A stretch of 64,000 nucleotides of DNA, taken from Hahella sp. CCB-MM4. Lineage in GTDB: Bacteria; Pseudomonadota; Gammaproteobacteria; Pseudomonadales; Oleiphilaceae. Under the pieces are notes generated by a model, which was not told where the DNA came from, ran no database searches, and was given only the letters and a program-made list of their open reading frames with translations. Location: positions 1-64,000 of the forward strand of contig NZ_MRYI01000021.1 of the NCBI RefSeq assembly GCF_002260525.1, in the 5' to 3' direction. A program made the position numbers and the translations under genes. Positions 4,317 to 53,328 of this stretch are shown one piece after another; position 1 is the first letter of the stretch; each line of letters begins with the position of its first letter.

Positions 4317-4814
4317 TCAACTACGTTCGCTCTGGATCCTGGAGATAGCTCCTACCAACGCCTGCTCGATGGAAAACTCCCTCACCTCTTTCCTGTCGCC
4401 TTCGAAATGAAAGCAGTGGGAGTCTATCTTGCCGTTCAGGTTCCAGGCCAGCCATACCATACCGACCGGCTTATCCGGTAAGCCGCCACCAGGTCCAGCA
4501 ATACCGCTTACGGCAATACATAGCTCAGCGCCGGTTGTCCTGGCCAATCCTTCCGCCATCCCGGTCACGGTTGCCTCACTCACGGCACCATGCAAGGCCA
4601 GTGTCTCATAGGAAACCCCTAACCAATGCTGCTTTGATTCATTGGAATAGGTCACCAGACTTTGCTCAAACCAATTACTGCTTCCGGCCACACTTGTGAT
4701 GGCATAGGCAATGCCGCCACCGGTACAGCTTTCTGCAGTTGCCACTTTATAGCCTTTCTGTTGCAGCAACAGACCCAGTTCGGCTGCAAGCTGTTCGACT
4801 TTGTCTGTATTCAT
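4317..4814 (-). CDS. pncC: CinA C-terminal domain protein, nicotinamide-nucleotide amidase (PncC)
   Basis: 165 residues, the stand-alone C-terminal CinA domain. The family signature ATAESCTGGGIAYAIT is near residues 26-41 and AVSGIAGPGGGLPDKPVG near 105-122. The enzyme deamidates nicotinamide mononucleotide to nicotinic acid mononucleotide in pyridine-nucleotide salvage. The ATG at 4814 is chosen because a GAGG ribosome-binding site lies 7-8 bases before it, and an in-frame GTG at 4820 would sit inside that site. It precedes recA on the same strand, the usual arrangement, and is divergent from mutS. Confidence 0.93.
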   Translation of the reverse strand: MNTDKVEQLAAELGLLLQQKGYKVATAESCTGGGIAYAITSVAGSSNWFEQSLVTYSNESKQHWLGVSYETLALHGAVSEATVTGMAEGLARTTGAELCIAVSGIAGPGGGLPDKPVGMVWLAWNLNGKIDSHCFHFEGDRKEVREFSIEQALVGAISRIQSERS

Positions 4815-5030
4815 TCCCACCTCGTTATTGATGTCATTATTACGGAGTGCCCTGCATACATTATGCAGATAGAGATACCTGATCGATAAATTTCATTTCA
4901 CGGGCCTGTACACCTTTATTAACCCCCGTGCCATCCCGTACAATTTCGCGTTCGCCCAACAGGATTTACTGTCCGGCGTCCCGCGAACGAATCTTATATT
5001 TCTCAACAAGATACTATAAAACTGGACCAA

Positions 5031-7601: not shown

Positions 7602-7623
7602 TGGATTCGAATAACACTTACCT

Positions 7624-35288: not shown

Positions 35289-35293
35289 CAATC

Positions 35294-36346: not shown

Positions 36347-36353
36347 GTCGACT

Positions 36354-37499: not shown

Positions 37500-37505
37500 A
37501 ACAAG

Positions 37506-38780
37506 ATGCTGAAGTCTACACTTATAAGCCAATCTGCGATTTATTTATTAACAAATATCATAAATAAGTCCATACCATTTTTACTGCTCCCGGTAATTAC
37601 CAGATACCTCAGCCCGAGCGAATATGGGGTATTGGCAGTATTCCAGGTTATTGTTTCGTTCTCCTCACCTTTTGTTGGTCTAAGTCTGCACACACATATA
37701 ACCAGGAACTTCAAAAAGTCTACCGAGCAACACCTGAGGAGCATCATCAGAAAGATCATTGCCATACTCATATCTTCGACAGTATTGGCTCTATTTCTTA
37801 TATCTACATTTATTGCAATTAATACAAGCCTGGAGATATTGTCACTTCCTTTTTCGACCGTATGGTTAGATGCAGCGCCTTTAGTATCATGCCTATCTGC
37901 ATTTAATTTGATCTCTTTGTCAATTTACCGCAATGAAGGACAGCCAAAACGATATGCCTATCAAGAGATAGCACGTACACTTGTGACTGCGTCAGCCACT
38001 CTTTTTCTTCTCATCAATCTTGAATTTGGTTGGTACGCGATAATACTGGCCCAATTACTAGGGCTCATGATCGCTTCAGTGATTGGGCTCCTATATTTAC
38101 ATAACAAAAAGTATTTGAAGCCTAGTCAGGAAGAGGGAACAGAATTAACCTCTAATATCCTTCGGATCAGCATTCCAATGATCCCTCATACTCTGTCATC
38201 AGCGGCAATAATGTTAATAGACAGACTGTTCATATCTTATTATTTAGACTCTCAGAGTGTCGGAATATATTCCCTTGGTTATCAGATTGGCTCAATCACA
38301 TCTATCCTGATAGATTCATTCATATTAGCCTGGTCTCCTTGGTTTTATGCATACTTAAACCAGAATAAAGACAAGATTTACCTGGTAAAAAGAATTTATT
38401 TGTGTGCTATTTTATTCTTGGGAATTGGTGTTCTAACATCAATTTTGTCTCCCTTAGCGATAAAATTAGTCACACCTGAGTCCTATCATGGAGCAACGAT
38501 CATCGCGTCAATGATTTCTCTGGCAGCCATTCTTCATGGTTTCTATAAGCTTGTTTTCCCGTTTTTAGTTCATGTCGGTAAAACTGGTTTTTTAGCTCTA
38601 AGTACCACTACAGCCGCAATCACCAACATTGTATTTAATATCCTCCTAATCCCAGTTCTTGGGCTAGAGGGAGCCGCGATAGCAACAGCCCTATCATTTG
38701 GAGTTAGTTTTCTTCTTGTTTTTCTCAGAGCAAATTATTTATTTAAGATGCCTTGGTTTTTAAATGACGGCAAAAAATAG
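37506..38780 (+). CDS. Wzx-type polysaccharide flippase
   Basis: 424 residues, almost wholly hydrophobic with about 12 predicted helices. The start YLLTNIINKSIPFLLLPVIT and the ITRYLSPSEYGVLAVFQ segment are typical of the MOP-superfamily polysaccharide transporters; RISIPMIPHTLSSAAIMLID lies in the central repeat. It would move an undecaprenyl-linked glycan across the inner membrane. No Wzy polymerase or initiating phosphoglycosyl transferase accompanies it in the window. Its end overlaps the next gene by 17 bases. Codon use is A+T-rich. Confidence 0.88.
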   Translation: MLKSTLISQSAIYLLTNIINKSIPFLLLPVITRYLSPSEYGVLAVFQVIVSFSSPFVGLSLHTHITRNFKKSTEQHLRSIIRKIIAILISSTVLALFLISTFIAINTSLEILSLPFSTVWLDAAPLVSCLSAFNLISLSIYRNEGQPKRYAYQEIARTLVTASATLFLLINLEFGWYAIILAQLLGLMIASVIGLLYLHNKKYLKPSQEEGTELTSNILRISIPMIPHTLSSAAIMLIDRLFISYYLDSQSVGIYSLGYQIGSITSILIDSFILAWSPWFYAYLNQNKDKIYLVKRIYLCAILFLGIGVLTSILSPLAIKLVTPESYHGATIIASMISLAAILHGFYKLVFPFLVHVGKTGFLALSTTTAAITNIVFNILLIPVLGLEGAAIATALSFGVSFLLVFLRANYLFKMPWFLNDGKK

Positions 38781-40122
38781 CCCTATCACGCTACATCAGT
38801 TTTGTAAGGCTTTCTGGGAACTGGAGAGTCGCCACAATTTACTGGATCTCAAAGTCGGCGATGTTTATATCTGGCAGGCGGTACGCATGAACGCGTATTA
38901 CTTGATTGCACAGAAAAAAAACGTTCTTGAGCAACCTCACTCTACTCCATTGAAAACCAGCTTCAACCATAAACTCAAGAGGCTTTTGAGGAAGATTTCT
39001 AAAATTGTTAGAGACCCCATTTTTAATAAGGTGCGGATGATTGATAACAAAAATGCCGCCACCTGTATCGTCGAACACCCCCGGACAAAGCACTACAAAA
39101 ATACAGTTTGCGACATATATACAGAGAGCCTGCTTGAAGATCGAGAACTCTCCTCCAACTTGCTGTTATTGGACAATAACACCAACCAAAAATCCCAAAA
39201 GACTTACCACCCCTGCAGGAGAGATCTTGGCTTTACTGATGCGATATCAGATGCTCTGGGAACTGTGATATCAATAGCTCTAAGTTTTTCGTCAAATGCG
39301 ATAAAACTACGTAAACTTCAGGAAGCCATCATTAAAGAGTTTCAGATCAATGCACTCCCGAAAAACTATCTTTTAACACACTACAGCAAGTTTGTTGTAA
39401 GAAGATTTCTGATAAAAACGGTTTTCAGAATTTATCAAATCAAGACTTTATATATAGTTGTCTCCTATCAGCACGCCGCCATTATTTCTGCTGCGAAAAA
39501 GCTAGGCATTAAAGTTATAGAGTTACAGCATGGCACATTCTCAAAGTATCATTTAGGTTATAGCTTCCCTAACTTACAAACCACACTGCATTATTTCCCC
39601 GACTATTTCGGTTGCTGGAGCGAATTCTGGCGGCAGCAATTTACAAGGCTGGCGTCCCCTGCATCAAGCTATGTCCATGGGTTTCCCTATTTATATGATT
39701 CTTTGGCGAAATATAAGAACGTACAAAAGATTCCCATGACTATCGCCGTCGCTTCCCAAGGCGTGCTGGGTAACCGCCTGGCTTCAGTACTGATGAGTCA
39801 CGCCTATCGACTCAGGAAATTTAAAATCACCTACAAGTTACATCCTGGGGAATATGGTAGATGGAAGGAATATGAGGCCTTCAAGAATATATCCCTTCCT
39901 GACAACATCACTGTTGTCGAAGATTGTGACCTATACACACTCCTAGCAGAATCTGAATTTATAATCGGCGTCTTCTCTACCGCAATCTTTGAAGGACTGG
40001 AACTTGGAGCAAAGCCGGTGCTGGTAGACTTGCCAGGAATTGAATATATGGAAGACTTACTGGTCACTGGCAACGCATTACAGTTTAATCAATTTTTAGA
40101 CGAGTACGGAACCAATGCCTGA
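38764..40122 (+). CDS. Putative GT-B glycosyltransferase, candidate nonulosonate transferase
   Basis: 452 residues; not a family I can name with certainty. The C-terminal half has KVIELQHGTFSKYHLGY (about residue 252), YKLHPGEYGRW (about 358) and GVFSTAIFEGLELGAKPVLV (about 403). The His-Pro and Ser-Thr pairs at such positions recall the HP and S(S/T) motifs of bacterial sialyl- and polysialyltransferases and of CDP-glycerol-type capsule enzymes. The N-terminal 200 residues look unique. Placed in the same run as CMP-nonulosonate genes, it is the best candidate to use that donor. It overlaps both neighbours. Confidence 0.6.
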   Translation: MTAKNSPITLHQFCKAFWELESRHNLLDLKVGDVYIWQAVRMNAYYLIAQKKNVLEQPHSTPLKTSFNHKLKRLLRKISKIVRDPIFNKVRMIDNKNAATCIVEHPRTKHYKNTVCDIYTESLLEDRELSSNLLLLDNNTNQKSQKTYHPCRRDLGFTDAISDALGTVISIALSFSSNAIKLRKLQEAIIKEFQINALPKNYLLTHYSKFVVRRFLIKTVFRIYQIKTLYIVVSYQHAAIISAAKKLGIKVIELQHGTFSKYHLGYSFPNLQTTLHYFPDYFGCWSEFWRQQFTRLASPASSYVHGFPYLYDSLAKYKNVQKIPMTIAVASQGVLGNRLASVLMSHAYRLRKFKITYKLHPGEYGRWKEYEAFKNISLPDNITVVEDCDLYTLLAESEFIIGVFSTAIFEGLELGAKPVLVDLPGIEYMEDLLVTGNALQFNQFLDEYGTNA

Positions 40123-41008
40123 CACTCCTTTAGTTTCTGTCTATATTGCCACTCACAACAGGGCCGACCTACTCTCCAGAGCAATAGATTCGGTATTGAA
40201 TCAATCCTATAAGAATATTGAAATTATTGTTGTTGATGATGGCTCAATTGATCAAACACCACAGAGACTAGAGCAACTGTCAATCAAGATCGACAACCTG
40301 AAACACTTCAGATTTGAGGAAGCACGGGGCGCTTGTGCCGCAAGAAATCTCGCAATTCAGGAAGCAAGCGGACAATTTGTTACTGGGCTCGATGATGATG
40401 ATGAGTTTTTGCCCAACAGAATTGAGGAGTTTGTCCGGAATTATTCACCAGAATACAGCTTTATATGCTCAACTCACTACTCCAGAATTGATCATCAGCT
40501 AGTGCCCTCTCCCCTACAAAAAAGAGAAGTCTCGCTTTCGGACTTTAAGAAAAAAAACTACTGCCAAAATTTATTTGCCGAGAGGAGCAGAGTACTTTCA
40601 ATTGGAGGCTATGACACCACATTGCCTGCTTGGCAGGACTACGACTTTTCTTTCCGACTGTGCGAAAAATTTGGCGTTGCACTTAAACTGGACAACTGCT
40701 CATACATCGTAGATTGCACAGCTGCCGATCAACGAATCAGTACCAGCCCAAAGACATTGGAAGGTTATCGGATGTTCATGGAAAAGCATGGACACAAACT
40801 GACAACAGCAGAAAAAGACATGCAACTTGCTAACAGTCTATTCAACCGTCGGGTATCAACCACATTCATCGAGTGTTTTACCAAAGTTCATTACAATCCA
40901 GCACGCTACAAGCTTTTTAAGCTTTACGTTCTCACACATTATCCCCGGCTATACTATTTTCTGGTGCATACAGCGCGGCACTGGACTAACTTTACTGCCA
41001 AAAAGTAG
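40115..41008 (+). CDS. Glycosyltransferase family 2
   Basis: 297 residues. The GT-A nucleotide-sugar fold is clear: VSVYIATHNRADLLSRAIDS, then IIVVDDGSIDQTPQRL and a metal-binding DDDDE (GLDDDDEFLPNRIEEF) at about residues 90-105. ACAARNLAIQEASGQFV is the usual second motif. No membrane segment. It overlaps the preceding gene by 8 bases and ends the plus-strand half of the island; the next gene converges on it. Donor and acceptor unknown. Confidence 0.9.
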   Translation: MPDTPLVSVYIATHNRADLLSRAIDSVLNQSYKNIEIIVVDDGSIDQTPQRLEQLSIKIDNLKHFRFEEARGACAARNLAIQEASGQFVTGLDDDDEFLPNRIEEFVRNYSPEYSFICSTHYSRIDHQLVPSPLQKREVSLSDFKKKNYCQNLFAERSRVLSIGGYDTTLPAWQDYDFSFRLCEKFGVALKLDNCSYIVDCTAADQRISTSPKTLEGYRMFMEKHGHKLTTAEKDMQLANSLFNRRVSTTFIECFTKVHYNPARYKLFKLYVLTHYPRLYYFLVHTARHWTNFTAKK

Positions 41009-41049: not shown

Positions 41050-42033
41050 TTAGACCTTCATCAAACTCCGGTTGTAAACATCGAGCAGCCTGCTCGCGAC
41101 TGACAAAGAATCCAACTTAAGACTGACCAATCGCTCACGACCGGATGTTCTATCGAAATTTTCTGCAAACGCCAACGCTTTCTCCAATGCGGAGGCCACA
41201 TCCTCAGCGTCTTGCCTCACGACAAAACAACCTTGAATATCCTCAAGTAGCCAGCTGACATCACCGACATCTGTCGCAACGATGGGGCATCTACAGGCCA
41301 TAGCTTCTTTGACAACATTCGGAGATCCTTCATATAAGGATGTCAGCAACATGACATCAGCGGCGCAATACCACTGAGCAAGCTCCGATTGGGACAAATT
41401 ATATATAGGTATCAGGGCAACCGATCTATCGCCCAGCTTTTGCAATGACTTTTGTGCTAACAGATAATTTTTTTCCGGCCTTGAAGGATCCGAAGGGAAA
41501 AGTATGACCTTTTGATGAGGAGATAAATCCAGTCTCTTCCTCGCTATGCTTTTACCAATACACTCAAAACGATCAAAGTTAACACCATTAGGAATTACAG
41601 AGCCTTTCACCTTATCAGGCAGCATTGCCAGCATGTCTTCGGACTTAACAATGACCTCACGGCTGAAAATTAAGGCGACTATACGGCTGATCGCTCTCAC
41701 AACGATTCCAACGGCAGACAAACGACCGTCAGCCTTCCTTTTTCCATACAAGTCAGTTCCCATCAAAGAAAGAACCAAAACGCTTCTCCGTCCACAACCG
41801 AGCCCTGCAATCAGGCCTGAAAGACCATAATGGGCATGAACGACATCAAAATATTCTTTCGAAATCTTCCTTCTCAGATGTACCACAGACTTCAAATAAT
41901 CCGCCACTCCTCCTCCGTCTATGGTGTAGTATTGAACGTTAACTCCCTGGCTCTCTAACGACTCACCCTGAGCAAGGATCAGTGGCGAAGGCATGCCTTT
42001 GCTTCGAGACCGACTCACAAAAAGTACATTCAT
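41050..42033 (-). CDS. Glycosyltransferase family 4
   Basis: 327 residues, GT-B fold. The N-terminal FVSRSRSKGMPSPLILAQGE and VVHAHYGLSGLIAG are donor-side loops, VIPNGVNFDRF is the family hallmark, and the C-terminal TSLYEGSPNVVKEAMACRCP holds the E-x7-E motif. It begins with an ATG overlapping the TGA of the amidotransferase gene (ATGA), so the two are co-translated. It is the last gene of the minus-strand half of the island. Confidence 0.92.
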   Translation of the reverse strand: MNVLFVSRSRSKGMPSPLILAQGESLESQGVNVQYYTIDGGGVADYLKSVVHLRRKISKEYFDVVHAHYGLSGLIAGLGCGRRSVLVLSLMGTDLYGKRKADGRLSAVGIVVRAISRIVALIFSREVIVKSEDMLAMLPDKVKGSVIPNGVNFDRFECIGKSIARKRLDLSPHQKVILFPSDPSRPEKNYLLAQKSLQKLGDRSVALIPIYNLSQSELAQWYCAADVMLLTSLYEGSPNVVKEAMACRCPIVATDVGDVSWLLEDIQGCFVVRQDAEDVASALEKALAFAENFDRTSGRERLVSLKLDSLSVASRLLDVYNRSLMKV

Positions 42034-43994
42034 ACAAAAACCGAGCTATCGAGCGTTACAAACCTTTCTCGTGATGTAACCAGATTCATCTGATACTCCC
42101 AGTTCCTTATGGAAACCAAGAGCCATATCCTCATCGCATGGTCCACTTGGCCACTTTGGTGCTCCTTCCAGATTTGTTGGATGAACTCTCGCCGGATAAA
42201 TCTCTCAACCAGCCCTGAATCATCGAACAATTTACTGTATGCCCACTCCCGCAATTCACCTCTCAGCCATTTTGCCAGAGGAATTGAAAACCCCGTTTTT
42301 TGCTTTGAAAAATACAGTTCAGGCGCTTTTTCCCTAACATAGTTCCTTAACGGCAGCTTGGTTGTCCCATCCTTGACCTTGTCACTGACCTGCAGCCCAT
42401 TAACATACTCAACCAGTCGATGATCCAACAGTGGCGCCCGACACTCGAGCGAGCTTGCCATAGATGCGATATCCACTTTAGTCAAAATGTCATCAGGCAA
42501 GTACATACATTGGTCTATTTCAGGCCAACGGGAATCCCTCGGCCCAGTACAAGCCTCATGGTATCTATGGTGAATAGATTCCGAATGGAACCCCCCCTTG
42601 GACAACCGCTCAGAGAATCCAGGCATAAAGGCCTTATTTTGCCAAAACTCATGAAACATATGGCTCCTGTTATTTCCCTTTGTTTCGAGCCTCCCAGCAC
42701 TTGCAACAAAGTCAATGCCGCGCTTTAAGTTTGCCCCACAGGGTAAAGTTTTGACCAAATTGGCAATAGCACATCTAATCCCATAGGGTACCGTGCCCAG
42801 AGCGGCATAGTATCGCTCTAATCCGTAGCGGTTGTATCCAAAAAAGACCTCATCCCCTCCATCTCCGGAAAGAGCCACCTTCACATCCTCCCGAGCGGCC
42901 TTGGCGACCAAGTACGTTGGAACAAAGGAATAGTCCGCAAATGGCTGCCCATAATGTCTTGCCAACTTCTCTGATAGCTCGCCTAACCTTGCATCAACCT
43001 GAATGTCCCGGTGACGACTTCCTATAACCTTGGAAGTATTGCTGGCGATCAAGGATTCATCCTCTAGACCGATATAGGCATTGTTGGAAATAGTATAGGT
43101 TCTAACAGGCTCTCGGGATAAAGATGCGGCACTCAAGGCCACCGTAGTGGAGTCCACTCCGCCGGACAAAAACACACCAGACTCAACGTCAGCGATCAGC
43201 CTCGATTTAACAGCATTATTTAGCAAATCACTGAACTCTTCCGAGTCAAACGATCTCTGTGCCCCCATTTGAGGATGCCAATATCTGCTTACTTCAATGC
43301 TATCAAAAGTCTTAGAAACTCTAGCTGTATGTCCTGCCGGCAATGAATAGCAGTTCTTGTAAATAGTTAAAGGCGATGGAACATATCCGTGTCTCAGGTA
43401 TTCGCCCATAGCCAAGTCATCTACAATGGGTGAAAATGATGACAGGTGCCAAAATGCGTGCAACTCGCTCGCAAATGCCAAACAGTCTTCGCCAACATAA
43501 TAATATAGCGGCTTTTCTCCAAATCGATCCCTAGCGAGAAACAGCGTATCGCGCTTTACATCATAAATTGCAAAAGCGAACATACCGTTCAGCTTGTGAA
43601 CCATGTCTTCAGCGAACTCCTCCCATAGGTGAACCAGGACCTCTGTATCACCATGGTTTCGAAGAACATGTCCTTTCCCAGTCAGGAAGTTTGCAAGCTC
43701 CTTATAATTATAGATTTCACCGTTGAAAGTTACCCAAACAGTCCCGTCCTCATTACTCAGAGGCTGCCGGCTTCCTTGCAAATCGATAATGCTGAGACGC
43801 CGATGTCCCAGATAGGCTTTATACGGCTGCTCACACTGAGCCCGACTTAGTACCCCCCCACTTCCAGAGCCGGGATTAAAAGCTGCAACACCGGCATCGT
43901 CGGGGCCTCTATGCTCCAGAGACTCGACCATGCGTAGAACTTCAGTCGCCCTGTTAGCAGGCGAACTACCGTATATCCCGGCAATACCACACAT
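42030..43994 (-). CDS. Glutamine-hydrolysing asparagine-synthetase-like amidotransferase (AsnB family)
   Basis: 654 residues. The nucleophile Cys2 is exposed by removal of Met1 (MCGIAGIYG), and SLEHRGPDDAG and LGHRRLSIIDL belong to the class II glutaminase domain. The synthetase half has the PP-loop SGVFLSGGVDSTTVALSAA (about residue 250) and VALSGDGGDEVFFGYNRY. In polysaccharide clusters such proteins amidate sugars, for example a uronic acid carboxyl, rather than making asparagine; that is the likelier role here. It overlaps the GT4 gene and follows DUF354 after 117 bases. Confidence 0.9.
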   Translation of the reverse strand: MCGIAGIYGSSPANRATEVLRMVESLEHRGPDDAGVAAFNPGSGSGGVLSRAQCEQPYKAYLGHRRLSIIDLQGSRQPLSNEDGTVWVTFNGEIYNYKELANFLTGKGHVLRNHGDTEVLVHLWEEFAEDMVHKLNGMFAFAIYDVKRDTLFLARDRFGEKPLYYYVGEDCLAFASELHAFWHLSSFSPIVDDLAMGEYLRHGYVPSPLTIYKNCYSLPAGHTARVSKTFDSIEVSRYWHPQMGAQRSFDSEEFSDLLNNAVKSRLIADVESGVFLSGGVDSTTVALSAASLSREPVRTYTISNNAYIGLEDESLIASNTSKVIGSRHRDIQVDARLGELSEKLARHYGQPFADYSFVPTYLVAKAAREDVKVALSGDGGDEVFFGYNRYGLERYYAALGTVPYGIRCAIANLVKTLPCGANLKRGIDFVASAGRLETKGNNRSHMFHEFWQNKAFMPGFSERLSKGGFHSESIHHRYHEACTGPRDSRWPEIDQCMYLPDDILTKVDIASMASSLECRAPLLDHRLVEYVNGLQVSDKVKDGTTKLPLRNYVREKAPELYFSKQKTGFSIPLAKWLRGELREWAYSKLFDDSGLVERFIRREFIQQIWKEHQSGQVDHAMRIWLLVSIRNWEYQMNLVTSRERFVTLDSSVFV

Positions 43995-44111: not shown

Positions 44112-45152
44112 TTACTTTTTCGAGTTGGAAGAAACCACTTCTTCTATTTTTGAGATGACAAACTTTGGCATATCAACCATTCCCGACAACATCTCTTCAG
44201 CTCTAGCGCGAAACTCTTTTTCCGGAACCCCTAACACATCACGCACTGCCGAAAGAAGCTCATTTTTGTTGAGTGAACGAACGTTGTTTACCAACTTATA
44301 TCTAGTCTCCTGTTCATCTGTGTATCCACGCCCTGTTTCTGCACAGTACACTGACGGCACCCCCAAGACTGCAGCCTCTGAAGCCATCGTTGCGCTTTCT
44401 CCAACATACAACCGACAGAAAGCCAACAAGTGGTGAATATCTTGAAAGTGTCCGCGGTACCGGTACTTTTCATACCTAGAAGGAAGTGGTGCCTCCGATG
44501 TAATTATGACGTTATTATCCTTCAGTTCCTCCAGCAGGGCATCCAACAGATCGGTATTCCAACCTTTTTCTCCAATATCGTGATTAGCTTGCCAGGAAAC
44601 CATTCTGATCAAGACATTAGGTACATCTCTTTTCAGCCCGCAGGCTAGCGCTATGTCCAGGTTAGGCTCAAAATAAGGTCTTTGGAGGTAGGATAATTCA
44701 TGGTATCCCGGGTAACGATCACCTTTCCCCTTGGGCAACCACCCTTGATAGCACCTGGGAACATATATTTTAGTTGCAAACGGATAGGTAATCCTGTTTT
44801 GAAGTGATGCATTTTCAGTGTCATAGAACACTATTGATGGAGTACCACTAAGAACCCCCGTATGCGTAATGAAGGTACCACCTATGGCAATCATGACATC
44901 AGGACGGTACCTACGCACCACTTTGTATAAACGCCAGTCTCTGAATATTAGTTCCTTCAAAAGCCCGAAAAGGCCAGTCTGTGCTTTTGACAGCATCAGA
45001 TGCTTTTCTCCGAAGGAATCCAGCAGCTCAAGAGTACAATCCTTGTCTCTGCTTGTAACAACAACATCATCTCCCCTCTCTCGTAGGGACGTTATGATGT
45101 TCTTAAAAAAGTGAGCATGTGCTGGGTGGTTTACATCAACAAGAACTCTCAA
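44112..45152 (-). CDS. DUF354 family protein (GT-B-like)
   Basis: 346 residues. The start VLVDVNHPAHAHFFKNIITS and the DVMIAIGGTFITHTGVLSGT and FYDTENASLQNRITYPFATK segments are characteristic of DUF354, a family with a GT-B-like fold found in archaeal and bacterial glycan clusters. The only sensible start is a TTG at 45152, three bases after the stop of the GT2 gene, with AAAGG about 11 bases before. The reaction is unknown. It probably acts on a nucleotide sugar or lipid-linked intermediate of this locus. Confidence 0.8.
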   Translation of the reverse strand: MRVLVDVNHPAHAHFFKNIITSLRERGDDVVVTSRDKDCTLELLDSFGEKHLMLSKAQTGLFGLLKELIFRDWRLYKVVRRYRPDVMIAIGGTFITHTGVLSGTPSIVFYDTENASLQNRITYPFATKIYVPRCYQGWLPKGKGDRYPGYHELSYLQRPYFEPNLDIALACGLKRDVPNVLIRMVSWQANHDIGEKGWNTDLLDALLEELKDNNVIITSEAPLPSRYEKYRYRGHFQDIHHLLAFCRLYVGESATMASEAAVLGVPSVYCAETGRGYTDEQETRYKLVNNVRSLNKNELLSAVRDVLGVPEKEFRARAEEMLSGMVDMPKFVISKIEEVVSSNSKK

Positions 45153-45155
45153 GGG

Positions 45156-46037
45156 TTAACTACCTTTGGTATTTTTACCTTCCGAGTACAAGAGCAAGGT
45201 TACCTGTTCAGATACAAGCCCAATCAGAAAAACCAATACAGAGGTTATTAACAGCAGTGCACTCATATTAGTGAACCTGTTAAACATCATATAGGTATAA
45301 AGGTAGTACCCCACCCCCACACTGAAGAAGAAGAAACTGATGGGAGTAAACATCTTTAATGGTGAGTACAGAGTCCCTATCTTAAAAATGATGAGCAGGA
45401 ATCTGATCCCGTCCCGGAGAAGATTTATATGACTCTTGCCAACTCTTTTTTCTACTTTCATAGGCAAGTAGTAAACTGAATAACCAGATCTGAAGAAAGC
45501 CATAGTGGACGTTGTCGGGTAGGAAAAACCGTTAGGCAATAAATAAATAAATTCTCGGAATTTATCTGCCCTTACAGCCCTAAAGCCTGAGGTAAGATCT
45601 TCAATTTTATGTCCAACCATCCAAGAAGCTAGAGCATTATATAAAGAGTTTCCTGCCAAACGACCAAGACTTGCCTGCGACTCACTCCCTCGACTACCTA
45701 CTACAAGATCATAGCCTGCAGAAATTTTTTCAAGCATCGAAGGTATATAGTCAGGGTTATGCTGGCCATCAGCATCAAGAAAAACAAATATTTCTCCCGT
45801 AGCATTCCGTGCCCCCGTTTTAATTGCACTTCCATTACCCTGACTGTATGGGTGAGAAATAACCCTTACCTTATCGAATCTTTTACAAACTTCCACTGTA
45901 TCATCAGTAGAACCATCGTCCACGACGATGATTTCTGACACGTCTTCTATAGCTACTAACCTCGGAAGCAACCCAGTTAAACCCGCGGCCTCATTTTTTG
46001 CGGGAATAATACAACTGACACTTTTATTCGATTCCAT
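45156..46037 (-). CDS. Polyprenyl-phosphate-type glycosyltransferase family 2 with two C-terminal membrane helices
   Basis: 293 residues from the ATG at 46037, preceded by AAGAAG; a TTG six bases earlier is less likely. The GT-A domain shows VSCIIPAKNEAAGLTGLLPR, IIVVDDGSTDDTVEV and the metal-binding LDADGQHNPDYIP. The last 70 residues carry two transmembrane helices (FTPISFFFFSVGVGYYLYTY and LLLITSVLVFLIGLVSE), the layout of DPM1/ArnC/GtrB-type enzymes that make undecaprenyl-phosphate sugars. This would feed the GT-C-like protein encoded two genes upstream. Confidence 0.88.
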   Translation of the reverse strand: MESNKSVSCIIPAKNEAAGLTGLLPRLVAIEDVSEIIVVDDGSTDDTVEVCKRFDKVRVISHPYSQGNGSAIKTGARNATGEIFVFLDADGQHNPDYIPSMLEKISAGYDLVVGSRGSESQASLGRLAGNSLYNALASWMVGHKIEDLTSGFRAVRADKFREFIYLLPNGFSYPTTSTMAFFRSGYSVYYLPMKVEKRVGKSHINLLRDGIRFLLIIFKIGTLYSPLKMFTPISFFFFSVGVGYYLYTYMMFNRFTNMSALLLITSVLVFLIGLVSEQVTLLLYSEGKNTKGS

Positions 46038-46185
46038 TAACAATCTTCTTTTATGAATGGTTTCCAGGGAAGCTTACCGTATCCAGAACTAAATCAAGTA
46101 AAAAACGCAGATAGCTCAGTACGACAGACAGAGGCCTCTATTCATAGCCAAGAGTACCCAGCAAGTCAAATAGTGACTAATTGTG

Positions 46186-46629
46186 TCACTTACATGAAAC
46201 CGGCAAAAATACAGAATCTATCGATGTATTAGCATCAGCCAGAACTCCGGCATTGCCGCATTGCCAGGTTACCCCACCATCAGTAGATGCGAAGGCAATC
46301 GTACCATTGGCAATTGATGCATTGACCCCACCGGGTTTAAAAGTTGCCTGAATGACAACTGTTGCTCCCGCAGGAATTAACGTCATGGCTCCGACATACT
46401 TACCGTTAGTTATAGCGTTTACGTCAGCCAAAACAGGAAATGCCCCTGTTGACTGATAGGTTTCTGCTACAACAGTCCTGATTCCTCCAAGCAATTCCAA
46501 AGCTTCACTTACCTGTGACCTGGCCAGATAACTCTGATAGGCTGGTATTGCTATCGAAGCCAAAATTCCAATGATCGCCACCACGATCATCAGTTCAATG
46601 AGAGTAAACCCCTTCTCCAATTTAGCCAT
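46186..46629 (-). CDS. Type IV pilin, second copy
   Basis: 147 residues from the ATG at 46629, which has GGGGGAAG before it. The class III leader is MAKLEKG with cleavage before Phe8, then [18 protein letters not shown] with Glu5 of the mature protein. The C-terminal disulfide loop lies between TWQCG and the final SCK. It resembles the pilA product throughout, including the (G)GxTW(D/Q)CG and LPxSCK ends, and so is either a paralogous major pilin or a minor pilin. It sits downstream of the GT-C/TPR gene and upstream of the GT2 gene. Confidence 0.92.
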   Translation of the reverse strand: MAKLEKGFTLIELMIVVAIIGILASIAIPAYQSYLARSQVSEALELLGGIRTVVAETYQSTGAFPVLADVNAITNGKYVGAMTLIPAGATVVIQATFKPGGVNASIANGTIAFASTDGGVTWQCGNAGVLADANTSIDSVFLPVSCK

Positions 46630-46666
46630 TTCTTCCCCCGAAACTTTAACCACTTAATAAAACAAA

Positions 46667-46681
46667 TCAAAATTCGGGCCA
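46667..46681 (-). promoter_or_regulatory. Weak sigma-54-like site upstream of the second pilin
   Basis: On the minus strand TGGCCC-GAATT-TTGA keeps the -24 GG and the correct spacing, but the -12 GC is GA. It lies 38 bases before the pilin ATG, just after the preceding gene. It could be a weakened copy of the pilA promoter. Confidence 0.35.
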
Positions 46682-46685
46682 ATAT

Positions 46686-48575
46686 TTAGTTAGTCTGGAA
46701 TATCAAAGACTGAACAGTTTCCAATTCATGCGTATATTGACAATCTTGCCCTTTACTCTCACATAACACTCGGGCCTTCTCATACAGTTTCTTGGCTTCG
46801 AGAATATTGCCAGCCAAATACTTTCTCTGGCTAAGGCTCAATAAGATGTCCACTCTTTCCTTATAACTTAAGGCAACCTCCAACGCGCTAATCGCCTTAT
46901 CCGCCTCCCCCACTTTCTCGTACACTTGCGACTCAAGTATGCTCAGCTCAGCCCCCCATATCTGATAGTTGTTATTAGATTTTAGAGCATCGAGCATAAT
47001 TAGAAGCTCATCATATTGGACAACCATGCATTGCCCAGAGAGTTCCTTATTCACTAATTCCTGAATAATACGGACCGTTTCCAAATAGTATTTCCCCTGG
47101 GAAAGCCTATTTTCAATGACTGATAATGATGGTTTTTCAACATCTTTCTTAGTACAACCAATTTCCAACCAAAGCAAAATCTTACTTGGATCATCGGAAA
47201 AATGTTCGTTTGTTTCCTTATAGAATCGCGCTGCTGCATCAGTCATTCCCAAATTGTTTAGATACATGCCTACATGAGCATGAGCACGATTAGATCCTTT
47301 GTTGTTGTTATAAATATAGATGGCCAGCTTCAGTGGATTATCCCACACTCGAGAGAGAAAACTGGATGTAACAGCTAGATTCCCCGCCCATACAACTGCC
47401 AGAAAAATTACAAGGTATGATGCTATAGAGTGCCCCTTTTGCCTCAAAACATAAAAGGCGTCTGTTACTAAGCACAATATAATCAATATAACACCAATAG
47501 AAGCCAAATAGTTGCGATGCTCAAAGTATAACTCTAAGGGAATAATGGTGGATTCCAGAATATGCCATATATAGAAATTCAGAATCCCAAGAGAAATAAC
47601 CGGCAGACGTTTTCTTATCAATATAGCCAGCCCAATGGATCCAATATGAAACAATAAACAAAACACCGTCTCCAACGGCTGAAACAATCCCTTTGAAACA
47701 GGGTAATTATCAAAAATGAACTTGAAGCTCTCGGCCCTTGCAAGCGATATTGATTGCAAGTAGTCGAGCAACACTCTGGTCTCTGTAAGCATTCGCTCTA
47801 CGGGACCAAAATCTCTCTGGACATATCCCTTTAAAAGATAATCAAAACCTATAACAGCAGCCATCACAACCAACAGGACAGGAAGATATATCAGGCATAA
47901 TCTGAGCCTACCAATAAGTAATGAAACAGGTTCAGTACGAAGCACGGTCATTTCCAGTGCAACAACCATCCCCAAGGACAGGATAGCGTTCTCTTTGGAA
48001 AGTATCCCCAGGACAAGAAGAAGCAAAGCAACCAATAGCTCCGCCAACAATCTTACAGTCACCTTATCGCTCCCACTCCTTCTTATATGTATGTACATAA
48101 CAAGAAACATCAGCGAGAAGAAAGCGGACAAAAGCGTCATCCTTTGAACCACATAAAAGACGGATGAAATTTGCATTGGATGAATCATCCATACAACGCT
48201 AACGACTACAGCAAGGGGAGTTGATCCATATCGGGTGTTTTTTAGAGCAGACGCAAGAAAGACATAAAGAAGAAGGGAGTTAAGAATATGAATAACGAAG
48301 TTAACTACCTTGAAATCAAATGGTATATCAGGCCAGCTTTGATGCTGAAAATAGAAAGAAGCATAAGATAACGGACGCCCTATATCCCCTAAATCGAAGT
48401 AAAAAATATCTTTAAGAGAAGTGAGCTCATTGAATGCAGGAACAGAAGACAGTCCACGAAGATTAGGGAAGTCGTCCAGTAAAAATCCCCCATACAATGC
48501 GGGATAGAAAATATAGATGGCAAAAAAGACACTAAGTAGAAGAACAGTGCAGGAAACGAACTTATTTTTTATCAT
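46686..48575 (-). CDS. GT-C-like multi-pass membrane protein with C-terminal TPR repeats, candidate pilin glycosyltransferase
   Basis: 629 residues. About ten to eleven transmembrane helices fill residues 1-420. The first periplasmic loop has GGFLLDDFPNLRG with an Asp-Asp pair at 34-35, the catalytic-type acidic motif of GT-C enzymes, and WMIHPMQISSVFYVVQRMTL resembles the His-Pro...Gln-Arg motif of TMTC-type TPR glycosyltransferases. The last 200 residues are helical repeats (AHVGMYLNNLGMTDAAARFY; GEADKAISALEVALSYKERV) of TPR type. Lying between two pilin genes, it is a good candidate for the enzyme that glycosylates pilin from a polyprenyl-linked donor. Function is inferred. Confidence 0.7.
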   Translation of the reverse strand: MIKNKFVSCTVLLLSVFFAIYIFYPALYGGFLLDDFPNLRGLSSVPAFNELTSLKDIFYFDLGDIGRPLSYASFYFQHQSWPDIPFDFKVVNFVIHILNSLLLYVFLASALKNTRYGSTPLAVVVSVVWMIHPMQISSVFYVVQRMTLLSAFFSLMFLVMYIHIRRSGSDKVTVRLLAELLVALLLLVLGILSKENAILSLGMVVALEMTVLRTEPVSLLIGRLRLCLIYLPVLLVVMAAVIGFDYLLKGYVQRDFGPVERMLTETRVLLDYLQSISLARAESFKFIFDNYPVSKGLFQPLETVFCLLFHIGSIGLAILIRKRLPVISLGILNFYIWHILESTIIPLELYFEHRNYLASIGVILIILCLVTDAFYVLRQKGHSIASYLVIFLAVVWAGNLAVTSSFLSRVWDNPLKLAIYIYNNNKGSNRAHAHVGMYLNNLGMTDAAARFYKETNEHFSDDPSKILLWLEIGCTKKDVEKPSLSVIENRLSQGKYYLETVRIIQELVNKELSGQCMVVQYDELLIMLDALKSNNNYQIWGAELSILESQVYEKVGEADKAISALEVALSYKERVDILLSLSQRKYLAGNILEAKKLYEKARVLCESKGQDCQYTHELETVQSLIFQTN

Positions 48576-48584
48576 ATTCTTACA

Positions 48585-48621
48585 GTTAAAAAAGAAAAGC
48601 CCTCACATGTGAGGGCTTTTC
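48585..48621 (-). terminator. Terminator after pilA
   Basis: A near-perfect palindrome GAAAAGCCCTCACAT/GTGAGGGCTTTTC (48594-48621), followed on the minus strand by TTTTTT. It lies 20 bases after the pilA stop and before the GT-C gene, so downstream genes would get only read-through or a separate promoter. Confidence 0.92.
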
Positions 48622-48641
48622 TCAGTGTAGCTAATGAGCTA

Positions 48642-49106
48642 TTACTTACAAGAAGACGGCAGGTATTGGTCACCAACAGTGTTAGTGGCAGCGGAATTAC
48701 CAAGCTCACCACAATCCCAAGTAGAACCACCATCGTCAGAAGCGATTGCAAATATTGCGCCTTGGATATTAGCGTTAACCCCAGTAGCCTGCAGTTGTGC
48801 AGAGATAACGAAGTTACCGATGGTGCCTGTGATCGTCATGAAGTCAACATATTTTGCAGCGTCGGTACCAACACCACCACTGTATGCACCAGCACCTAAA
48901 TCTGCCAGGCTAGGCACAGTACCAGTGTTTTGAATAAATTCAGCAGCAGGCGCCTTCAAACCAGCAGTCAGGTTCACAGCTTCAGTTACCTGCGAACGAG
49001 CAATATAGTCTTGGTATGCAGGAATTGCTACGGCGGCCAAAATACCGATGATTGCAACAACAATCATCAATTCAATCAGGGTAAAACCTTTTTGTACTGA
49101 TTTCAT
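48642..49106 (-). CDS. pilA: Major type IV pilin PilA
   Basis: 154 residues. Short leader MKSVQKG, cleavage before Phe8 by PilD, then [20 protein letters not shown] with mature Glu5. Variable middle; the C-terminal disulfide loop lies between STWDCG and the final SSCK. It has its own sigma-54-type promoter and terminator and is divergent from pilB, the classic arrangement for a major pilin. Several Ser and Thr residues lie near the C-terminal loop, where O-glycans are attached in some pilins. Confidence 0.95.
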
Positions 49107-49177
49107 AAATCATTCTCCGAATATCGAGCTATAAATTTTCGGCCAAGCGTGACCGCCCGCACCTTGCCATGAACGAA

Positions 49178-49192
49178 GCAGTCTTCATGCCA
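49178..49192 (-). promoter_or_regulatory. Sigma-54 promoter of pilA
   Basis: On the minus strand TGGCAT-GAAGA-CTGC matches TGGCAC-N5-TTGC, with GG at -24 and GC at -12 correctly spaced. Transcription would start near 49166, giving a leader of about 60 bases. RpoN/PilR control of pilA is established in Pseudomonas. Confidence 0.8.
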
Positions 49193-49450: not shown

Positions 49451-51163
49451 ATGAACACGCAGGCGCCCTCCCCCTTAACTGGACTTGCAAGAAGATTTGT
49501 CCTGGACAATTTAATAGAAGAACAGGTTGCAAGAGACGCCCAGAAAAGCTCTATTACGAACAAAATCCCATTTGTATCCTATTTGGTACAAAACCAGCTG
49601 GCTGACCCAAAACAACTGGCTTACTCAGCGTCAGCGGAGTTTGGTGTACCAGTATTTGATCTCGACAGCGTATCCACGGAGCAGATTCCAGAAAAGATCG
49701 TCGAAGAGAAACTGATTCGAAAACATCACGCTCTTCCGCTTTTCAAACGCGGCAACCGGCTATTTATTGCAGTCGCTGATCCAACTAATCTCCAGGCTCT
49801 CGATGAGATAAAATTTCACACCGGCCTGAGCACCGATGCCGTTCTCGTCGAGGAAGACAAACTATCCAGCTCCATTGAGCGATATCTTGACTCCCAGGAA
49901 CAACCTCTGGGCGATTTTGATGACGGCGAGCTTGGCGATATTGATATTGAAGCAGGGGACGATACAGATCGCGACGATGATGCATCTTCTGATCAAGATG
50001 ACGCCCCTATCGTCAAATACATCAACAAGATGTTGCTCGACGCTATAAAATCCGGAGCATCCGATATTCACTTCGAGCCTTATGAAAAAACCTATAGGGT
50101 GAGATTCAGGACTGATGGGATTCTTCACGAAGTCTCTAAACCATCCATAAAGCTCGCGGCCAAACTTGCTGCCAGGCTAAAAGTCATGTCGCAACTGGAT
50201 ATATCCGAGCGACGAGTTCCTCAGGATGGCCGTATCAAGCTGAAACTATCCAAAACAAAGGCTATAGATTTCCGGGTAAACACACTTCCTACACTGTGGG
50301 GAGAGAAAATCGTATTGCGGATTCTTGACCCTAGCAGCGCCAAACTGGGCATAGACGCACTTGGTTATGAAGAAGCTCAGAAAAAGATGTACCTTGATGC
50401 TCTGGCACAACCCCAAGGCATGATTCTAGTGACAGGCCCCACCGGTAGCGGCAAAACAGTATCGCTTTACACCGGCCTGAATATTCTCAACACGACTGAG
50501 CGCAACATATCCACTGCAGAAGATCCGGTTGAGATTAACCTGGAAGGAATCAACCAGGTCAACGTTAGCACCAGAGTGGGACTGGACTTCTCTTCCGCAC
50601 TGCGTGCTTTCCTTCGTCAGGATCCCGACGTCGTCATGGTTGGGGAGATCCGAGATCTTGATACTGCTTCTATCGCTATTAAGGCCGCTCAAACCGGACA
50701 CTTAGTTCTTTCAACCCTTCACACCAACAGCGCCCCTGAAACTCTGACGCGCTTAATGAACATGGGGGTTCCTGCATTTAATATTGCCACATCTGTCAGC
50801 CTGATTATTGCTCAGCGTCTGGCAAGGCGTCTTTGCAACGAATGCAAAGAAGAAATGTCTGTTCCCGAGCAAGTGCTTAAGGAGGAGGGCTTCACAGATG
50901 AACAAATTAAAACAGGTTTTAAATTGTATACACATAAAGGCTGTGCTAAATGCAAGGATGGTTATAAGGGGCGCGTAGGTATCTACGAGGTTGTCCGAAT
51001 TACTCCAGCAATGCAGGAATTGATAATGAAGGAAGCCAGCTCTATTGAAATTGCTAAGCAGGCACAGGCAGAAGGCTTTAACAACCTCCGCCAGTCAGCC
51101 CTCAAAAAAGTTATAGACGGACTGACAAGCCTCGAAGAAGCGAATCGTGTGACGAAGGATTAA
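49451..51163 (+). CDS. pilB: Type IV pilus assembly ATPase PilB
   Basis: 570 residues. The N-terminal MshEN-like domain (about 20-145) is followed by an unusually acidic linker (about 155-190, runs of Asp and Glu), then the GspE domain with Walker A GPTGSGKTVSLY, the Asp box around DPVEINLEGINQV, Walker B VVMVGEIRD and the tetracysteine zinc site CNECKEEM...CAKCKDGY. It powers pilus extension at the inner membrane. pilC follows after 4 bases. Confidence 0.98.
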   Translation: MNTQAPSPLTGLARRFVLDNLIEEQVARDAQKSSITNKIPFVSYLVQNQLADPKQLAYSASAEFGVPVFDLDSVSTEQIPEKIVEEKLIRKHHALPLFKRGNRLFIAVADPTNLQALDEIKFHTGLSTDAVLVEEDKLSSSIERYLDSQEQPLGDFDDGELGDIDIEAGDDTDRDDDASSDQDDAPIVKYINKMLLDAIKSGASDIHFEPYEKTYRVRFRTDGILHEVSKPSIKLAAKLAARLKVMSQLDISERRVPQDGRIKLKLSKTKAIDFRVNTLPTLWGEKIVLRILDPSSAKLGIDALGYEEAQKKMYLDALAQPQGMILVTGPTGSGKTVSLYTGLNILNTTERNISTAEDPVEINLEGINQVNVSTRVGLDFSSALRAFLRQDPDVVMVGEIRDLDTASIAIKAAQTGHLVLSTLHTNSAPETLTRLMNMGVPAFNIATSVSLIIAQRLARRLCNECKEEMSVPEQVLKEEGFTDEQIKTGFKLYTHKGCAKCKDGYKGRVGIYEVVRITPAMQELIMKEASSIEIAKQAQAEGFNNLRQSALKKVIDGLTSLEEANRVTKD

Positions 51164-51167
51164 TTTT

Positions 51168-52388
51168 ATGGCTCAGGCAGCACAAAAAGCATCTACCTTT
51201 GTCTGGGAAGGTACAGACAAGAAGGGGCAAAAAACCAAGGGTGAAGCCTCTGGTTCCAATATCGCCCTGGTAAAGGCACAGCTACGAAAACAGGGTATCA
51301 ACCCTACCAAGGTCAGGAAAAAACAGCAGAGTATTTTTAGTAATAAAGCAAAGAAGATTACGCCGTTCGACATTGCTATTTTTACTCGACAAATGGCGAC
51401 AATGATGAAAGCGGGCGTACCTCTTGTTCAATCATTCGATATTGTTGCCGACGGCCTGGAACATCCGTCCCTGCGAACTTTAGTTTTAGATATCAAGAAT
51501 GAAGTTGCTGCAGGTAATAGCTTCGCTGGAGCACTCTCTAAGCATCCCAAACATTTTGACAGCCTGTTCTGTAACCTGATTGATTCTGGCGAGAAGTCCG
51601 GTGCATTGGAAACCATGCTGGATCGGGTTGCCACCTACCTTGAGAAAACAGAGACACTCAAGAAAAAAGTCAAAAAAGCCATGACCTACCCTATTGCAGT
51701 ATTAGTCGTAGCAGTCGTGGTCACCGGCATTCTGCTGGTAAAAGTGGTTCCCCAGTTTCAGGAACTTTTCCAAGGCTTTGGCGCAGACTTACCTGCGTTT
51801 ACCCAGTTCGTAATTAAAATATCAGAAGCACTGCAAGAATCCTGGTACATCATCCTGGGAGTCATGATTGCACTGGGTTATGCCTTTGCTGAAGGTAGAA
51901 GAAGGTCAGAAAAGTTTTCCGATGCAGTTGATGCCTACATTTTGAAGCTGCCTATTATGGGCGACATTCTCCATAAATCAGCGGTAGCAAGATTCGCCAG
52001 GGTACTGTCGACAACCTTTGCAGCCGGTGTTCCTCTTGTCGATGCACTGGATTCTGTTGCTGGCGCTACAGGAAATGCCGTTTTCCGCAAAGCCGTATTT
52101 AAAATTCGCGATGAAGTATCAGCAGGTACCCAATTGCAGTTCAGCATGAAATCCACCGGTGTATTCCCTGCCATGGCCGTCCAGCTAACGTCAATTGGTG
52201 AGGAATCGGGCGCTCTGGATGATATGCTGGAAAAAGTCGCCGACCACTATGAAGCAGAAGTGGATGATGCGGTTGATAACCTGACAGCGCTGATGGAACC
52301 GATGATCATGGCGGTACTGGGCGTTCTCGTGGGCGGCCTCATTGTCGCCATGTACCTGCCGATATTCCAGCTCGGTTCAGTCGTATAA
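51168..52388 (+). CDS. pilC: Type IV pilus inner-membrane platform protein PilC
   Basis: 406 residues with two GspF domains (about 70-195 and 275-395). FTRQMATMMKAGVPLVQSFD and FARVLSTTFAAGVPLVDALD are the paired repeats, and LTSIGEESGALDDMLEKVA is the family signature. Three transmembrane helices (AVLVVAVVVTGILLVKVV, the region near 225, and the C-terminal MAVLGVLVGGLIVAMYLPIF). It couples PilB to pilin assembly. Confidence 0.98.
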   Translation: MAQAAQKASTFVWEGTDKKGQKTKGEASGSNIALVKAQLRKQGINPTKVRKKQQSIFSNKAKKITPFDIAIFTRQMATMMKAGVPLVQSFDIVADGLEHPSLRTLVLDIKNEVAAGNSFAGALSKHPKHFDSLFCNLIDSGEKSGALETMLDRVATYLEKTETLKKKVKKAMTYPIAVLVVAVVVTGILLVKVVPQFQELFQGFGADLPAFTQFVIKISEALQESWYIILGVMIALGYAFAEGRRRSEKFSDAVDAYILKLPIMGDILHKSAVARFARVLSTTFAAGVPLVDALDSVAGATGNAVFRKAVFKIRDEVSAGTQLQFSMKSTGVFPAMAVQLTSIGEESGALDDMLEKVADHYEAEVDDAVDNLTALMEPMIMAVLGVLVGGLIVAMYLPIFQLGSVV

Positions 52389-52407
52389 ACCCCACTGTTT
52401 GTCTAAT

Positions 52408-52436
52408 AGCCTCGCTCAAGCGAGGCTTTTTATTTA
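52408..52436 (+). terminator. Intrinsic terminator between pilC and pilD
   Basis: AGCCTCGC (52408-52415), loop TCAA, GCGAGGCT (52420-52427), then TTTTATTT. It lies 20 bases after pilC and 17 before pilD, so pilD would need read-through or a promoter inside pilC. Confidence 0.92.
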
Positions 52437-52452
52437 TGTAGTCTCAGAAATT

Positions 52453-53328
52453 ATGGAATCCATCTTTACCCAACTTAACCAGAATCCAGCCCTGCTCTAC
52501 TTTACCGTTGTTATTTTCGGCTTAACGGTAGGCAGCTTTTTTAATGTCGTCATATTCCGTATGCCAAAGATTCTGGAGCAGGAGTGGCGGGCACAATGTG
52601 CCGAGTTGATGGAACAGGAATTACCTGGAGATCAGCCAAAAATCACGCTATCCACTCCCGCCTCAACCTGCCCAAAATGCGGACATCGAATCAAGCCATG
52701 GGAGAATATTCCTGTCGTGAGTTATCTTGCCTTAGGCGGTAAATGTTCTGCCTGCAAGACCAGGATTTCGATGCGTTACCCTATCATTGAGGTGATAACA
52801 GCAATCCTGGCTACCGTAGTGGTATGCCAGTTTGAGCTATCATGGATTGGACTTGCAGCCATCGCGTTCAGTTGGGCGCTGTTGGTACTCTCGATGATTG
52901 ACTTCGACACCCAGCTTTTGCCTGACATTATTACCCTCCCCCTGCTCTGGGTGGGACTTCTAGTCAACACCCAAGGATTCTTTACCTCACTCGAGGAAGC
53001 CGTATGGGGAGCTGTTTTAGGCTATATGGCGCTTTGGTCGGTATACCATCTATTCAAGCTTATTACCGGAAAAGAAGGCATGGGGTTTGGGGACTTTAAA
53101 CTTCTTGGGGCTCTTGGTGCCTGGCTCGGCTGGAAGATGTTACCGCTGATCATTCTGCTTTCTTCACTTGTCGGAGCCATCGTTGGACTGCTACTCATCG
53201 CCGTCATGGGAAGGGACAAGAATATTCCTATCCCATTCGGCCCTTACCTGGCTGCCGCCGGCTGGATCGCCATGATGTGGGGAGACGACATCGTATCGGG
53301 ATATCTCAATTTACTGAATCCCTCCTGA
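52453..53328 (+). CDS. pilD: Prepilin leader peptidase/N-methyltransferase PilD
   Basis: 291 residues from the ATG at 52453; an upstream in-frame extension would run back through the terminator and into pilC. The zinc-type cysteines are in CPKCGHRIKPWENIP and GKCSACKTR. Catalytic aspartates lie in SMIDFDTQLLPDIITLP and GMGFGDFKLLGALGAWLGW. About eight transmembrane helices. It cleaves and N-methylates both pilins of this locus and other type IV pilin-like proteins. Confidence 0.98.
   Translation: MESIFTQLNQNPALLYFTVVIFGLTVGSFFNVVIFRMPKILEQEWRAQCAELMEQELPGDQPKITLSTPASTCPKCGHRIKPWENIPVVSYLALGGKCSACKTRISMRYPIIEVITAILATVVVCQFELSWIGLAAIAFSWALLVLSMIDFDTQLLPDIITLPLLWVGLLVNTQGFFTSLEEAVWGAVLGYMALWSVYHLFKLITGKEGMGFGDFKLLGALGAWLGWKMLPLIILLSSLVGAIVGLLLIAVMGRDKNIPIPFGPYLAAAGWIAMMWGDDIVSGYLNLLNPS

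Follow-up and report, generated by a model that had tools for sequence, protein, structure and literature searches.

Organization of the pilA locus

The window, a stretch of 64,000 nucleotides from Hahella sp. CCB-MM4, contains a pilin locus in which four open reading frames follow one another on the same strand (Table 1): pilA, then the gene of a membrane protein of 629 residues, another pilin gene and a GT2 gene. All four were found where the first-pass annotation had placed them. Both pilins match PF00114 as well as N_methyl above the cut-off, and the second pilin, which is 51% identical to PilA, has its likely ATG at 46629, just before the class III leader, as read off the sequence. PF00114 occurs at three places in the genome, two of which belong to this locus. 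As pilA is divergent from the pilB-, pilC- and pilD-like genes, it is taken to encode the major pilin. The names of these neighbours are presumed from their sequences.

Table 1. Genes and sequence features of the pilA locus; positions refer to the window.
Feature	Position	Strand	Basis
pilA, type IVa pilin, 154 aa	48642..49106	-	PF00114 67 bits, N_methyl; position
GT-C glycosyltransferase by predicted fold, 629 aa	46686..48575	-	ORF; structure model
Second type IVa pilin	46186..46653	-	PF00114 70.5 bits
GT2, DPM/GtrB/ArnC type	45156..46043	-	PF00535 115.2 bits; likely ATG at 46037
pilB-, pilC- and pilD-like genes (names presumed)	49451..53328	+	ORFs; context only
DUF354 protein, optional downstream member	44112..45152	-	PF04007 76.7 bits
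Asparagine-synthase-like amidotransferase, optional downstream member	42030..43994	-	PF00733 260 bits
Predicted intrinsic terminator 3' of pilA, before the GT-C gene	48592..48623	-	14-pair stem, then T run
Sigma-54-like TGGC-N8-TGC site 5' of pilA	49177..49192	-	position only

The terminator between pilA and the following gene is a probable attenuator; the scan gave 8 terminator-like sites versus 4.3 in shuffles. Terminators located 3' of pilin genes have been described as restricting the expression of accessory genes (PMC11841053, excerpt). The sigma-54-like pattern found upstream of pilA matches 8 times in the window versus 5.85 times by chance, and 19 of 100 shuffles reach 8 matches. Furthermore, positions 33630-41008 of the plus strand hold genes resembling those of nonulosonic-acid and surface-polysaccharide synthesis, among them a flippase-like and a GT2 gene assigned by Pfam as well as genes which we presume to be cytidylyltransferase- and NeuB-like.

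Predicted fold and conserved residues of the 629-residue protein

The AlphaFold model of the 629-residue protein, based on an alignment of 93 sequences, has a pLDDT of 94.2 and shows a membrane half made of helices, followed by a tail of helical repeats. The membrane half modelled by itself from 47 sequences reached a pLDDT of 91.6. In the second-look alignment of this membrane-half model, the first 46 rows, which span Z 18.6 to 10.4, consist of 42 GT-C enzymes and 4 GPI-transamidase chains, and row 47 drops to Z 5.5. The top row is 8age_A (Z 18.6, rmsd 4.8, 334 aligned), while PMT1-PMT2 (6p25_B) and ArnT (5f15) were aligned with Z 17.9 and Z 15.4. The four GPI-transamidase chains are PIG-U, which has the GT-C fold as well. 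When the whole model was treated in the same way, residues 1 to ~438 matched STT3, AglB, PglB and AftB, and residues 423-629 matched TPR proteins. The protein is therefore divided into a predicted GT-C core (residues 1 to ~425) and a C-terminal TPR-like domain (residues ~423-629).

Foldseek alone gave no match with E <=0.001 for either model, the best value being 2.7e-3 for the membrane half, and it listed TPR proteins first for the whole model. Families missing from the fold-search listings were not counted as excluded. At the profile level, hhalign aligned the protein to a profile of 19 PMT_2 proteins with a probability of 77.4% (E 2e-5), pairing the acidic DD and the conserved lysine of the GT-C protein, and the controls with reversed rows and with pilC gave 0.3% and 0.2%. 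The family libraries returned weak TPR or unrelated matches only: a GT-C family is absent among the Pfam matches listed for the protein and 29 aligned members, no named GT-C family of Pfam, NCBIfam or PHROGs was matched by the protein family, and the TPR signal in Pfam (TPR_14, 18.8 bits) is weak compared with the cut-off of 23.5. Since no Pfam GT-C family was matched, the assignment of the fold rests on structure and profile comparison. Similarly, phmmer against PDB sequences yielded TPR proteins and unrelated weak matches, TPR proteins lead among the matches listed (60 of 257) in a profile search with the whole protein, and a search with only the membrane half had no match.

By its predicted fold, the 629-residue protein is a GT-C enzyme, and the fold search thus agrees with the first-pass annotation, which had proposed such a core. 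The C-terminal TPR repeats proposed there are present as a TPR-like tail in the structure model, but their Pfam signal stays below the cut-off. For this tail a kinship with PilF was considered, with 2fi7_A as the best match of the TPR region (Z 13.2); because other TPR chains score within ~1 Z, no such kinship is claimed.

The residues D34, D35, R67, H96, Q144, R145, K194, H353 and R354 are present in all 93 aligned sequences, so that the Asp-Asp pair described for the first periplasmic loop proved to be invariant. The motifs of human TMTC proteins are DD, SHKSYRP, RxD, KE and ERxxY (PMC7801869, excerpt). Counterparts of the TMTC motifs M1, M2, M4 and M7, which were paired by eye, are D34-D35, R67-P68, K194-E195 and R354, each found in at least 86 of the 93 sequences. 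In this pairing by eye, DD, RP, KE and the terminal Arg seem to have counterparts, and Q-R-M occupies the position of R-x-D. In the TPR domain, C474 and C516 occur together in 77 of the 93 sequences, are both missing in 5 and are represented by C516 alone in 11, a pattern that would fit a periplasmic disulphide.

The linked GT2

The GT2 matches PF00535, the phage GtrB family phrog_841 (5.3e-33) and the DPM synthase 5mlz_A (1.5e-16) and shows two C-terminal hydrophobic stretches. Its earlier description as an enzyme of the DPM/GtrB type was thus upheld. Due to its likeness to DPM synthase, ArnC and GtrB it should make an undecaprenyl-phosphate sugar, and it is presumed to be the corresponding synthase. 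It is from this linked gene only that a polyprenyl-linked sugar is deduced as the donor of the GT-C enzyme. As the next genes in the window look like those of surface polysaccharides, the GT2 could serve another glycan. No match to the GtrA flippase family PF04138 was found in the genome of Hahella sp. CCB-MM4, and control matches were obtained in 7 of 14 cases.

Distribution and gene order of the cassette

Of 390 genomes sampled from the order, 64 encode a relative of the GT-C protein at E <=1e-10, Hahella sp. CCB-MM4 included; in the phylum this holds for 33 of 398 sampled genomes at 1e-15, some of which have only distant relatives. A tblastn search of the collections of plasmids and phages remained without a match. 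Two sets of loci were used for the analysis of gene order. At least 588 stretches of the named genome collection encode relatives, and the best 80, which are therefore not a random sample, form set A with 82 arrays of adjacent GT-C genes. Set B comprises 66 regions covering the order matches outside the window, 65 of which contain 69 arrays. The two sets share 5 arrays, which were taken once in merged counts. Arrays with too little sequence to be tested were left out, namely 2 of 82 (set A) and 9 of 69 (set B) upstream as well as 6 of 82 and 6 of 69 downstream.

The neighbour survey found the homologues usually beside pilin genes, so that the first-pass annotation was not refuted on this point. 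Of the 136 testable arrays of the merged sets, in which set A stands for the best 80 of at least 588 stretches, 120 have a pilin gene no more than 1.1 kb upstream, and the other 16 have none there. The count is 68 of 80 in set A, selected in this way (3 divergent), and 54 of 60 in set B (3 divergent). Downstream, a GT2 was counted at >=300 bits to the GT2 of the window; it lies within 1.1 kb in 90 of 134 testable arrays when both sets are merged (set A again being the best 80 of at least 588), and 44 of 134 have no such gene. Separately, 47 of 76 arrays of set A, with the same selection, and 44 of 63 of set B carry it.

More than one GT-C gene is present in 27 of the 146 merged arrays; two or three genes were found in 11 of 82 (set A, best 80 of at least 588) and 17 of 69 (set B). 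The optional downstream members are less common: a DUF354 cluster and an asparagine-synthase-like cluster were each found near 12 of 146 GT-C loci, the window being counted in both. The two pilin genes flanking the GT-C gene, to which the first-pass annotation had drawn attention, are a feature of the window but not a general trait, as the wider cassette mostly carries its pilin or pilins upstream only. Among the loci examined, the order pilin - GT-C - pilin - GT2 was seen besides the window only in L114, and in two Rhodanobacter loci (L077 and L106) a pilin sits between two GT-C genes.

Some loci show other arrangements. A MAG contig labelled Klebsiella pneumoniae (L084) carries pilin - GT-C - GT2, and its label may be a binning error. 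In L086 (9911-11893) and L091 (9809-11914), the GT-C gene is located outside the pil cluster, past the end where pilD lies, on the opposite strand and with no adjacent pilin.

Co-occurrence with pilins and control loci

The linkage between the two enzymes was compared with 40 pilA regions from genomes without the GT-C enzyme. Of the pilB-bearing loci in the order sample (set B), 43 of 51 with the GT-C enzyme carry the GT2, whereas none of the 35 pilB-bearing control loci does. Taking all 44 of 63 order-sample arrays against 0 of 35 control loci gives p 4e-13. The coupling of the GT2 to the GT-C gene is real, and the suggestion that both act as a pair gains support from this gene linkage.

PF00114 is found in 61 of the 64 GT-C genomes versus 221 of 326 others (Fisher p 1e-6). 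In two of the three GT-C genomes without PF00114, G149 (L156) and G264 (L123), a pilin is recognized by a locus-derived profile. Eleven regions with distant GT-C relatives (L261-L271) contain no pilin, which assigns the pilin linkage to the GT-C subfamily of the cassette. A pilin is also missing from the region of L273, which encodes a fairly close relative (215 bits), while that of L272 has one. When pilB was corrected for, pilin divergence was still correlated with that of the GT-C protein in a set of 60 loci (partial r 0.24, a value that none of 2000 permutations reached), and GT-C and pilB divergence are hardly correlated (0.05). It therefore seems to be the pilin, and not pilB, that the enzyme accompanies.

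Wzy_C-like ligases were found in 10 of 40 control loci versus 0 of 147 cassette loci, using a profile built from the control loci, which favours ligases there; the ligase of L190 is the only one that was checked against Pfam. The L190 locus (4809-7617) belongs to a genome of the window's own family and has the order pilin - Wzy_C protein - pilin at pilA, with an unrelated enzyme in the middle.

Candidate acceptors

PilA is presumed to be the acceptor, and the second pilin is presumably a second acceptor or a variant subunit. That a pilin serves as acceptor is suggested by gene linkage, co-variation and the homology to TfpW described below. In the contrast of linked and control pilins, the sharpest Ser/Thr column (0.53 versus 0.05) falls where the alignment is rich in gaps and is not relied upon, so that no conserved acceptor position stands out convincingly among the linked pilins. 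Their overall Ser and Thr content is little different (0.225 versus 0.203, p 0.0008). The C-terminal residue is Arg or Lys in 60 of 115 distinct linked pilins and Ser in 8, which makes a C-terminal Ser acceptor of the TfpO type unlikely for most of them. Control pilins end in Ser in 12 of 61 cases, and both pilins of the window end in Lys.

Proposed function and alternatives

Taken together, the set probably represents a widespread two-enzyme cassette for the O-glycosylation of pilin. The GT2 would load one sugar, probably a hexose or a derivative, from a nucleotide sugar onto undecaprenyl phosphate at the cytoplasmic face, and a flippase would turn the lipid-linked sugar over to the periplasmic side. 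There, D34-D35 in the first periplasmic loop would form the catalytic or metal site, K194 and R354 would hold the lipid phosphate, and the GT-C enzyme would attach the sugar to a Ser or Thr residue of a pilin still located in the inner membrane. This pilin would be held by the TPR domain, which is assumed to lie in the periplasm and may be locked by a disulphide between C474 and C516; once modified, the pilin would enter the pilus. The terminator after pilA would keep the level of the enzymes below that of the pilin. In Gtr and pentofuranose systems a GT-C enzyme uses a lipid-linked sugar on the periplasmic side (PMC11127046, excerpt).

Instead of adding one sugar at a time, the GT-C protein could act as an oligosaccharyltransferase and transfer an oligosaccharide already assembled on its lipid carrier. 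STT3, AglB and PglB are among the closest solved folds, genes for glycan synthesis lie downstream, and a preprint title cited in PMC11841053 (excerpt) applies both terms, glycosyltransferase and oligosaccharyltransferase, to TfpW. This reading is nevertheless unlikely, since the linked GT2 is similar to enzymes that produce lipid-phosphate monosaccharides and the PMT/ArnT-like profile match points to single-sugar donors.

It is improbable that the genes form a Gtr-like system which decorates LPS or another surface glycan and owes its place next to pilA solely to history or regulation. A pilin upstream in 120 of 136 arrays (set A being the best 80 of at least 588), the correlation of pilin and GT-C distances beyond pilB and the lack of co-occurrence with Wzy_C-like ligases argue against it, and the 11 pilin-free regions of distant relatives mark the linkage as a subfamily trait, although the GT2 is GtrB-like, genes of the polysaccharide type come next in the window, no pilin lies directly upstream in 16 of 136 arrays and the relative L273 lacks one. 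Finally, a GT-C-derived accessory protein or chaperone with little or no transferase activity would resemble the TfpY-like proteins of P. aeruginosa, which are encoded with pilins and act in assembly (PMC11841053, excerpt), and would suit a protein-binding TPR domain and a superfamily in which PIG-U is called inactive (PMC7801869, excerpt), but it is very improbable in view of the invariance of D34, D35, K194 and R354 in 93 of 93 sequences and of the probable lipid-sugar synthase that travels with the gene.

Going beyond the two-enzyme glycosylation cassette, the TPR-bearing GT-C enzymes may constitute an undescribed class that builds a pilin glycan stepwise in the periplasm from undecaprenyl-phosphate monosaccharides and spans gamma-, beta- and magnetococcal Pseudomonadota. 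Tandem GT-C enzymes would each add one linkage, the TPR domain would grip the pilin, and the cassette would swap with Wzy_C ligases at pilA as an alternative surface coat, plausibly driven by phages specific for pili. This extended proposal is tentative and may well not hold as a whole.

Comparison with known systems

Pilin glycosylation as such is already known. Few pilin-glycosylating enzymes are named in the papers considered here, namely TfpO, TfpM, PglS, PglL and TfpW (PMC12645811, PMC11841053, excerpts), and no description of a TPR-bearing pilin GT-C cassette was found among the titles and abstract beginnings listed for open-access papers. If the proposed function is correct, far more bacteria (64 of 390 genomes sampled from the order) modify their pili in a way that is related to TfpW but involves a donor enzyme of its own. 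Sugars on pilin reportedly confer protection from pilus phages (PMC11841053, excerpt), and the cassette could thus be a widespread and swappable protective coat.

The three-component Gtr systems likewise combine a GtrB-type GT2 with a GT-C enzyme (PMC11127046, excerpt). They differ in having GtrA, which was not found in the genome of the window, and the set described here is linked to pilin and not to O antigen.

TfpO, TfpM, PglS and PglL share periplasmic pilin glycosylation with the proposed cassette, and the first three are gene-linked to their substrates (PMC12645811, excerpt). In contrast to the GT-C protein, all four carry an O-antigen-ligase domain; PF04932 (Wzy_C) is not among the matches listed for the 629-residue protein or 29 aligned members. 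In addition, the substrates of TfpO have a C-terminal Ser, whereas the pilins of the window have Lys at this position.

TfpW is the D-arabinofuranosyltransferase of group IV pilins in P. aeruginosa. A profile search with the membrane half gave a match in 5 of 25 genomes of one genus, including a protein of 641 residues encoded directly 3' of pilA (E 8.8e-16) and followed by a 245-residue protein. As strain PA7 carries TfpW and a TfpX of 244 residues (PMC11841053, excerpt), the 641-residue protein is very probably the TfpW of PA7. The GT-C protein of the window shares 24% identity with it over 154 residues (pairwise 1e-5) and is, judged by these alignments, a distant homologue. Both are GT-C enzymes of ~640 residues located directly after pilA, with DD in the first loop and a C-terminal tail. 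However, the tail of TfpW aligns only weakly with the TPR domain of the window protein (4.3% probability), and its region has no GT2, a TfpX gene following instead. The linked GT2 argues for a donor other than D-Araf. Proteins similar to TfpX (E below 1e-3) were detected at 10 of 147 cassette loci, with a weak match in two cases, and the window has none; examples are L096 (6948-7721) and L140 (5862-6662), in the latter of which the gene lies between GT-C and GT2.

In the first tree, TfpW grouped with distant relatives, and the long-branched L269 and L270 fell inside the pilin-linked family. After removal of these two sequences, the pilin-linked family forms one side of a branch with a support of 95 and TfpW lies outside, whereas a joint clade of TfpW and the family is not rejected by the AU test (p 0.25). 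Because of the homology, a GT-C enzyme with a soluble tail beside a pilin can be regarded as a variant of the TfpW kind. The distinct variant suspected in the first-pass annotation thus has a distant homologue in TfpW and is not unrelated to it.

The predicted architecture of a GT-C core with C-terminal TPR repeats is shared with TMTC1-4, the eukaryotic O-mannosyltransferases of family GT105 (PMC6801728, excerpt), and DD, RP, KE and the terminal Arg resemble TMTC motifs in the pairing by eye. The TMTC proteins differ by DUF1736 and R-x-D, while the protein of the window has Q-R-M and is linked to pilin. DUF1736 (PF08409) is not among the matches listed for it or 29 aligned members, and the PF08409 profile, whose sensitivity is unproved, matched neither in 150 genomes nor in any control. 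If the proposed function holds, the enzyme would provide a bacterial model of the TMTC-type architecture, in which a GT-C core is joined to TPR repeats.
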